In this document: positions 51,340 to 53,063 of the stretch, in pieces
How the letters are laid out: every line of letters starts with the position of its first letter
Position numbering within the stretch: position 1 is the first letter of the stretch
Assembly (NCBI GenBank): GCA_021732385.1
Contig: JAKFVA010000021.1
Coordinates: 1 to 64,000, forward strand
Source of the DNA: Burkholderiales bacterium
Lineage (GTDB): Bacteria > Pseudomonadota > Gammaproteobacteria > Burkholderiales > Burkholderiaceae_C
Direction of reading: 5' to 3'
Length of the DNA stretch: 64,000 bases
Program-made: the position numbers and the translations under genes
The notes under the pieces: model-generated
The model's database searches: none
What the model was told of the DNA's origin: nothing
The model's input: the letters and a program-made list of their open reading frames with translations, nothing else

Positions 51340-52217
51340 TTACTGCCCAGTTGCAGTGATGCTGCAGACAATGCTGAACGTCAAGGTGGAGTTGGCTGGC
51401 AAACTGGTCAGAGTGATGCCCGCGCCTTGCAAATTGGCGATAGTCACGTTCCCAGCCGCTGGACAAACTGCCGCACCCGTTACGCCGGTACAAGTTATTG
51501 ATGTGCAATTCATGCCGGCGACTATGGGGTCAGTAAGCACGGCCCCCGAGGCGTCGGCAGGGCCCATGTTTGCGACAGTGACGGTGTAGCTAGTCGTTGC
51601 GCCCGCAAAGACCGCATTGGCACCGTTACTTTTGTTGATGGTTAGATTAACCAGGCCTATCACTCTGTCAGCGTCAGTAGCGGTGTTGTTGGCCAAAACA
51701 GAATCCACCACGGTGGAGTTGGGAATTACTGAAACGGTGTTGGTTACCGTGCCCGCACTTGCTGTCACGGTAGCAATTACGGTAAGCGTCAAAGTTGAAC
51801 CCACCGAAGAATTGGCAATTACCAAACCATTACCTTCCAATGCGGCTATGGTCAGCACTGCAGGACAAGCCGTACCAGCAGAAGCGGTACAGGTCACAGA
51901 GTTTTTCGTTAATCCGGCTGCAACTGGGTCCACTACGGTAGTGGTTACAGCGGGCTCCGGCCCTGCATTTGTAACGACGATGGTGTAGGAAGTTGTTGAA
52001 TTTTGCAGCAGCGAAGTCTGGTTGTTGGTTTTTGTGACTCTAATATCTGCGCTGCGCACCCTGGTATTCACGGTCAAAGTTACATTACCGAAATCACTGT
52101 TGTAGTGGTAGGAGCTGCCCGAAAAGTCATGCACTAAACCGGATACAACGGATGTCCCGCCTGAAAGTACCCTGACGGTATAGGTCGTCAAAATTGGATC
52201 GCCGCCAGCCCCCCCCC
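51340..52217 (-). pseudogene. Out-of-frame 3' part of an exported DUF11-repeat protein gene
   Basis: This frame continues the protein encoded at 52188-53063 but is displaced at the G9 tract. It holds about 290 codons, with two DUF11-type repeats. One begins DIRVTKTNNQTSLLQNSTTS and contains VVTNAGPEPAVTTTVVDPVA; the other begins NLTINKSNGANAVFAGATTS and contains VANMGPADASGAVLTDPIVA. Each ends in a Cys-bearing strand (SVTCTASAGTACP, SITCTGVTGAAVCP). DUF11 domains are Ig-like repeats of bacterial surface proteins. The frame ends in ITATGQ, near where a third repeat would be expected. Joining the frames gives a protein of about 574 residues. It is either a real phase-off state or a homopolymer sequencing error. 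Confidence 0.75.
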
Positions 52218-53063
52218 GGGGTAAGGTGCAGGGCCAACACAGGAGCGGTAATTTGGCAAAAGAGGGTTGTTCTGCCAGCCGCAAGCGTCCCCATAAGGCG
52301 TGCTGTTAACTGCCCCCGTTGGCTGGGCATAAGTGGTTGACACACTTAGCACCTGAAACACCGTACTGGGCCAGGCAATAAAATTTTCGAGCTGATCGTA
52401 GCCGCCCGTTGCCGTGGCAGTTAAATAGGAATAGGTGTAGACCTCCCCCACATAAGCCAGGGTGGGACCAGAAATCTGCCGAATCAAATTACGGTTTTGT
52501 GATATCAGCCTTTCCACGTATAACTCGCGGTTGGCGGGCGTACTGATGCTGAGAGGTACGCCACCAGCGTTGCCAGTAACGCTGATGGTAAAAGTTCTTG
52601 TTCTATCAAAAGATGTAGCGGCGCGGGCGATGCTCACATTGAAGTACAAATCAGCACAATTGGCCGATGGCGTACTGATGGTGTATTGTGAGGGTGCTTG
52701 CGCCGTGGCCGTGCCGCTGGTTAACGTACCGTAAGCGATGCTAGAGGCACCAGAAACTGAAATGACGGTAGAGCCAGCACCCAAATTTAGCGTTGCATTC
52801 AAGTTGGTAATCGTCGCTCCACCCGTGTTACAGACCCGTGCACCCACCGGAAAAGTATCTGGCCCGTCAGTAACAGGCCTATTGGAGTCCAGCCCAATGA
52901 CGTTCCAGGTAGTAGGCGCAATAGTCAGGTTTTGCGCTGACGCCCATTGACTTGAAATTAACAACGCTAGTGCCAGAGCAACTTTTGGCAATACCGCGCA
53001 ACTGGCAACTACTTTTCTGATGAGCGCACTACGCACTTTGATCCATGAGGTGAAGTTAGCCAT
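52188..53063 (-). CDS. Exported DUF11-type surface protein, 5' part (frame ends just after the G9 tract)
   Basis: This 291-codon frame starts with a signal peptide (KVALALALLISSQWASA, cleaved before QNLTIAP) after a long basic N-segment. It continues as an Ig-like exported domain: RVCNTGGATITNLNATLNLG resembles DUF11 or conserved-repeat domains, and SANCADLYFNVSIARAATSF and LAYVGEVYTYSYLTATATGG follow. The last codons, PYPGGGLAAIQF, arise after the G tract and are not typical; the frame one base shifted continues naturally as GGDPILTTYTVRVL. As read, the product would lack the repeat region and C-terminus. The protein is probably secreted or cell-surface; its function is unknown. Confidence 0.8.
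   Translation of the reverse strand: MANFTSWIKVRSALIRKVVASCAVLPKVALALALLISSQWASAQNLTIAPTTWNVIGLDSNRPVTDGPDTFPVGARVCNTGGATITNLNATLNLGAGSTVISVSGASSIAYGTLTSGTATAQAPSQYTISTPSANCADLYFNVSIARAATSFDRTRTFTISVTGNAGGVPLSISTPANRELYVERLISQNRNLIRQISGPTLAYVGEVYTYSYLTATATGGYDQLENFIAWPSTVFQVLSVSTTYAQPTGAVNSTPYGDACGWQNNPLLPNYRSCVGPAPYPGGGLAAIQF
52209..52217 (-). repeat. G9 homopolymer tract, possible phase-variation switch
   Basis: Nine C on the plus strand (nine G on the coding strand), next to four more bases of the opposite kind, stand exactly where the DUF11 gene changes frame. Tracts of 7 or 10 G would restore one continuous reading frame. Such runs change length by slippage during replication. No other run of this length was noticed inside a coding region of the window. 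Confidence 0.75.

Follow-up and report, generated by a model that had tools for sequence, protein, structure and literature searches.

A nine-G tract divides the reading frame of a predicted DUF11 adhesin-like gene in a Burkholderiales genome: a candidate phase-variable locus

The window considered here is the whole 64-kb stretch of DNA that was analysed, and its minus strand carries an adhesin-like gene spread over two reading frames that meet at a run of nine G (Table 1). The upstream frame passes through the G9, continues for six sense codons and ends at a TGA (52190-52188), the last residues before which are out of frame. The downstream ORF is 314 aa long, about 291 of them from the tract onward, and a one-base difference separates the two frames. 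The two halves have similar GC3 values (0.54 and 0.56), below those of most other ORFs in the window. A promoter scan returned 0 sites versus 2.7 in shuffles, and the same-strand genes that follow resemble, from their translations, what we take to be a polyhydroxyalkanoate cluster. The initial annotation of this DNA had described a 291-codon frame ending just past the G9, a second frame carrying DUF11 repeats for about 290 codons from the tract, and a length of 7 or 10 G as sufficient to join the two. Coordinates, codon counts and arithmetic all bear this description out, and the DUF11 match lies above the Pfam cut-off.

Table 1. Features of the split gene, in window coordinates.
Feature	Position	Strand	Remarks
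Frame-break site, a G9 homopolymer that reads C9 on the + strand	52209..52217	-	C4 precedes on the coding strand
Upstream frame, an ORF of 291 aa beginning with a signal peptide	52188..53063	-	native part ends at the tract
Downstream frame, with the remainder of the Ig-like module followed by two DUF11 domains	51340..52284	-	open from tract to stop
Predicted Sec-type signal peptide, ASA-Q cleavage site	52935..53063	-	judged by eye
Predicted two-domain Ig-like module without a Pfam family, spanning the tract	52087..52928	-	AlphaFold model of relative L010
First DUF11 (CLIPPER) domain	51676..52047	-	match positions 1-111 of 114
Second, C-terminal DUF11 domain	51343..51645	-	match stops at position 89 of 114
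C-terminal end CSITATGQ, then stop (51342-51340)	51343..51366	-	common to family DUF11 proteins

Are the two halves parts of one gene? With the upstream frame as query, GTDB genome contigs yielded 51 related loci (L008-L058), a set that may omit records very near the window's own genome. By their titles, 32 of the 51 come from Acidobacteriota or Chloroflexota and three from Burkholderiales (L025, L038 and L051), the others being mixed. The best relatives are about half identical to the query, and the best segments are mostly under 50% identical. The junction is crossed in 49 of these loci by a single ORF, usually reading GGKAGG...TYTVKI at this point, which continues to DFSGSSYHY or a close variant; the remaining two, L056 and L058, end at contig ends before the junction. 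In-frame stops occur elsewhere in the module, away from the junction, in L022 and L052. Homology to the relatives ends in the upstream frame at Y-P-G-G and resumes in the downstream one at G-G-x-G-G, which places the break within a few codons, all inside the C4G9 run, and thereby upholds the earlier claim that the frame is broken exactly at the G9. Judged from these alignments, the upstream and downstream halves are one protein. Two independent genes were considered and rejected, given the single ORF of the 49 relatives and a second-frame start that would be without a signal peptide.

In the 49 relatives covering the site, G/C runs at the junction reach 6 at most. Long runs do occur among the fetched relatives (G9 in L037, L054, L057 and L081, C8 in L074, T9 in L030 and A9 in L052), none of them at the junction; by its coordinates, the G9 of L057 falls within the same long ORF and does not interrupt it. 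Since the protein's distant relatives are without a comparable tract at the site, the tract is, on this comparison, not an anciently conserved switch. At the position that it occupies, 46 of the 48 listed relatives have Lys or Arg (the K of GGKAGG; the exceptions are L041 and L053). Neither frame of the window supplies one of the two at this point, and the product of a joined frame would therefore deviate from the family as well. The G9 run is probably a novelty of this lineage, at the cost of a near-invariant residue, and the replacement fits either a tract that is young and unstable or a gene on its way to being lost, under relaxed constraint.

The module interrupted by the tract is widespread and recognizable by the motifs TWNVIGLDSN and DFSGSSYHY. 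No Pfam family matched the upstream frame at E up to 1, and among 44 module members all Pfam matches were weak (CARDB in 5 of 44, TRAP_beta in 2, DUF11 in 1, and none in the first member). A sequence search for the module among solved structures gave 0 matches. The AlphaFold model of L010 (44 sequences, mean pLDDT 93.7) predicts two beta-sandwich domains. Compared with known structures, these give Ig-like matches of middling quality, the best of them at Z 7.9 (rmsd 5.8, 182 aligned). The C-terminal domains of antigen I/II (e.g. 2wza: Z 6.7, rmsd 3.1, 115 aligned) are found among many tied matches, and what Foldseek and VIA matched are Ig-like sandwiches of a generic kind. The strands that lie beyond the junction in this model (220-232, 240-249, 254-257 and 264-269) are the last four of the second Ig-like domain. 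Because the break precedes them, the short product would scarcely be able to finish that domain and is, on the model, probably not a working form.

Close to the window's own genome the module is rare. Of 149 genomes searched in the family and order, the window's own alone had it; of 399 in the order, the own genome and one other did, the latter as a weak fragment with stops. Given this rarity it may be dispensable acquired cargo, and its acquisition is possible from the distribution of matches. Plasmids of Deinococcus taeanensis (45% identical) and of a Synechococcus (31%) carry matches to the N-terminal module, both of which stop short of the junction (query residues 265 and 272). No relatives were found on viral contigs, and a pattern scan of these with the tract flanks found none either.

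Downstream of the module, DUF11 is matched in two stretches (81.9 bits against a curated cut-off of 24.6, E 5.6e-23). Combined with a signal peptide, judged by eye and encoded in the other frame, this is the make-up by which DUF11 fibrillar adhesins are recognized. Under its new name, CLIPPER, DUF11 is described as a domain that builds the stalks of fibrillar adhesins and has an intramolecular bond between Lys and Asn (PMC12617251). The first copy has a Lys (K29, 52032-52030), an Asp (D63, 51930-51928) and an Asn (N126, 51741-51739) at likely isopeptide positions, which were placed by spacing and alignment with residue roles inferred from PMC12617251. The second copy has the Lys (51633-51631) and the Asp (51531-51529) and is without the last strand and the isopeptide Asn. 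An AlphaFold model of the window's downstream frame (14 sequences, mean pLDDT 89.7) puts the Asn of the first DUF11 on strand 122-132 and ends the second five residues after strand 243-253.

A C-terminal truncation was at first suspected as a second lesion, given the early end of the match and several relatives of the N-terminal module that continue further (some of the aligned rows end with the fetched DNA). It was rejected, for family DUF11 proteins end at the same point. A stop lies within three residues of the window's DUF11 end point in 21 of 29 family DUF11 loci (L072-L100) and not in the other 8, a share that is not a survey, the 29 being the best matches to the window's own tail in other genomes. 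Among the 21 loci, 14 end after CxVTATG and 10 with CxVTATGQ. When 13 of the 21 were aligned with the window, Lys162 and Asp196 of the second DUF11 were kept in all 14 sequences, the first-domain Asn was kept in 11, and 11 had no Asn after the last Cys of the terminal DUF11 (it is present in L076, L078 and L094). Terminal DUF11 domains of the family thus often end after a CxVTATG strand, usually without the isopeptide Asn and with Lys and Asp kept. From alignment and model together, it is possible that the terminal DUF11 is an open or split isopeptide domain. No known sorting domain was matched in either frame.

Is the rest of the gene damaged? No second lesion was found in about 570 codons, and both the signal peptide and the C-terminus are kept. 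Disabling mutations downstream of the tract, named beforehand as grounds for refuting a switch, were sought and none was found, the first DUF11 being nearly complete and the C-terminus shared with the family. A decayed pseudogene would carry several disabling lesions; a single break was found here, with a C-terminus in common with relatives. Four overlapping same-strand ORF pairs in the window were scanned as possible frameshifts: two pairs match different families, one pair has a single matching partner and one is without any match. As far as this partial check goes, there is no sign of generally error-rich sequence in the 64-kb window.

How unusual is a G9 run in this DNA? Its presence in the window is unremarkable: dinucleotide shuffles give 0.79 expected runs and at least one in 40 of 100 shuffles. 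The whole genome (2,610,763 bases in 61 contigs) has four separate G/C runs of at least nine, an ordinary number for the family and below the figure of about 32 to which the shuffle value scales at 2.61 Mb. At least one G9 is present in 99 of 100 family genomes, the own genome included, and enrichment of G runs was therefore rejected as support for switching. What sets the window's tract apart is the frame break. We examined 30 of the 59 places with a G/C run of at least nine in 12 chosen family genomes (27 from the 11 others and 3 from the own genome), and added the own genome's fourth run, a G12 locus (L062). In this reading, made by eye and with no control, a genuine protein changes frame only at the window's tract. 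A mechanical criterion for frame flips picked out eight further loci. The translations of six (L103, L111, L112, L121, L126 and L127) showed one side that was not protein-like, a start of its own or a gene continuing in one frame; L106 and L129 were rejected for a longer continuous frame on the other strand. In the genomes examined, long G/C runs thus do not seem to break a frame as a rule.

The other long runs of the genome have surroundings of their own. The genome's other coding run, an in-frame G9, lies in a C-5 cytosine methyltransferase gene (L068:2205-3419; G000 C18), which stays open, beside a gene with a GIY-YIG domain; the two are a candidate restriction-modification pair whose methylase could lose its frame by slippage. 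A G12 run (C12 on the coding strand; L069:2815-2826, G000 C28:7314-7325) stands just upstream of a gene for a Crp/Fnr-type regulator and could tune its expression. A further G9 (L070:3176-3184, G000 C1:207675-207683) is located between a ParA-like stop and the listed start of a same-strand MaoC-like gene, near enough to that start to touch the ribosome-binding region. The genome's other DUF11 protein (L067 and L002; G000 C42) is a large ORF open at the contig end, and a scan of the 3.3 kb locus L002 found no G/C run of 7 or more.

What, then, does the split gene represent? The reading that we favour over its rivals, tentatively and at slightly under an even chance, is a real OFF state, reversible by slippage, of a phase-variable (contingency) locus. 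The gene would encode one secreted adhesin-like protein in which a signal peptide is followed by a head of two Ig-like domains and a short stalk made of two DUF11 (CLIPPER) domains. In replication, slipped-strand mispairing would have altered the length of the G run, in the codons linking strands of the second Ig-like domain; among possible causes of a one-base difference within a G9 it is the simplest. The sequenced cells would be OFF, their truncated product being without the last strands of the second domain and without the stalk. The length change would be reversible, and the locus would act as a phase-variable one. Reversibility is probable given that the rest of the gene looks undamaged and that G9 runs vary at high frequency in Bordetella; by the same analogy, the G9 here should change length often. 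We infer slippage as the cause, the reversibility of the change, and the surface exposure and adhesive function of the product.

In its anatomy the gene resembles a homopolymer contingency locus. The tract exceeds the length at which G/C runs are treated as unstable in Bordetella (over 8; PMC1891110), and it is placed where a change of length switches the frame of an otherwise intact gene. The proposal of a phase-variable surface protein, first made in the initial annotation, stands in so far as this is one gene in two frames, broken at the tract, secreted and adhesin-like by prediction, without another lesion, and with a run length in the range unstable in Bordetella. It is weakened by distant relatives that are without the tract and by a tract that replaces a near-invariant Lys/Arg. 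Against switching, moreover, no variation in length was seen in the one genome of the genus that was covered, the tract is absent from the site in all 49 relatives, and the genome has no excess of G runs, whereas Bordetella has one.

Three other explanations have to be weighed. The first, already raised in the initial annotation, is an error of sequencing or assembly in the homopolymer, with a true tract of another length and a gene that is intact and stable. The intact look of the rest of the gene agrees with it, and artefacts of sequencing and of its analysis arise readily in homopolymer tracts (PMC8808543). We nevertheless consider it unlikely: no other broken gene is apparent in 64 kb (within the partial check of four ORF pairs), the genome completeness of 96.85% speaks against a high indel error rate, and a G12 run was assembled elsewhere in the same genome. 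The second is a fixed recent loss, in which slippage broke the gene once and no selection acts to restore it, leaving a young pseudogene. The tract in place of the Lys/Arg is compatible with relaxed constraint, and so is the rarity of the module nearby with a loss of this kind; the absence of a second lesion, with both ends of the protein preserved, argues the other way, and this account too seems to us doubtful. Programmed recoding, in which a ribosome or RNA polymerase would shift at the G run so that one allele gives a short and a long protein, is highly improbable: although a one-base shift would do, re-pairing could occur on a GGG codon, and slippage of either enzyme at special sequences is known in bacteria (PMC3711429), 49 of 49 relatives covering the site encode the protein in one frame with neither a slippery site nor a two-frame layout conserved, the region folds no better than shuffles (z 0.55, -0.01 and 0.99), and the transcription insertions described in homopolymer runs of E. 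coli and Buchnera were all in A or T runs (PMC5574713).

Phase variation by slippage, the favoured reading, could be taken one step further. As a long shot, the locus would encode a phase-variable adhesin whose ON product has an open terminal DUF11 that is completed by a strand of another molecule, forming an intermolecular covalent bond. If so, the G9 would turn on and off a surface fibre that crosslinks with itself or captures a partner, and would do so in a bacterium that is not among the classic phase-varying pathogens.

Why would a variable tract at this locus matter? A DUF11-type adhesin would join the surface genes that switch through G runs, in a small-genome member of Bordetella's order, when G-run switching has been studied mainly in pathogens. 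A gene of this sort can readily enter an annotation as two fragments, or as a pseudogene. Among the matches listed in the open-licence PMC literature there is no report of a phase-variable DUF11 gene; two leads, the GeneTack paper and that on Helicobacter HP0018, were set aside, the passages in question concerning DUF111 and DUF1104. The comparison had two by-products, an Ig-like module that is widespread and has no name, and a DUF11 C-terminus that recurs and is without the last strand.

How does the locus compare with known systems? The genomes of Campylobacter, Helicobacter and Neisseria hold many poly-G contingency loci. The gene described here is like these loci in having a frame-shifting G run in a surface-related gene, and unlike them in its setting, a genome with four G/C runs of at least nine, which is ordinary for its family. 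Closer in taxonomy are tcfA and bapC of Bordetella pertussis, whose products are autotransporter-type proteins, whereas the protein here is of the Ig-like/DUF11 kind and comes from a different genus of the order. As a predicted stalked surface protein, it resembles the DUF11 (CLIPPER) fibrillar adhesins in its signal peptide, N-terminal non-stalk module, tandem DUF11 domains, and a first copy whose likely isopeptide positions are occupied by Lys, Asp and Asn (PMC12617251). It differs from them in having two copies only and no sorting-domain match, in a last DUF11 without its final strand and Asn, and in being broken at a G run. Homopolymer runs of other genes offer a comparison: the poly(A) run of Listeria inlA changes at about a thousand times the rate of the average point mutation (PMC2831843), and in Bordetella pertussis C/G runs longer than eight exceed their chance frequency (PMC1891110). 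The coding G9 of tcfA is the main allele in 82 of 90 strains, in 75 of which G8 is a minor allele, and the G11 of bapC, which leaves that gene out of frame, varies within single colonies (PMC1891110). For tcfA and bapC, length variation was measured between and within cultures, and for the present gene we have the sequence of one genome. The three share the order and a coding G run of 9-11, at which single-base changes of length truncate the product of a known or predicted cell-envelope gene (PMC1891110).
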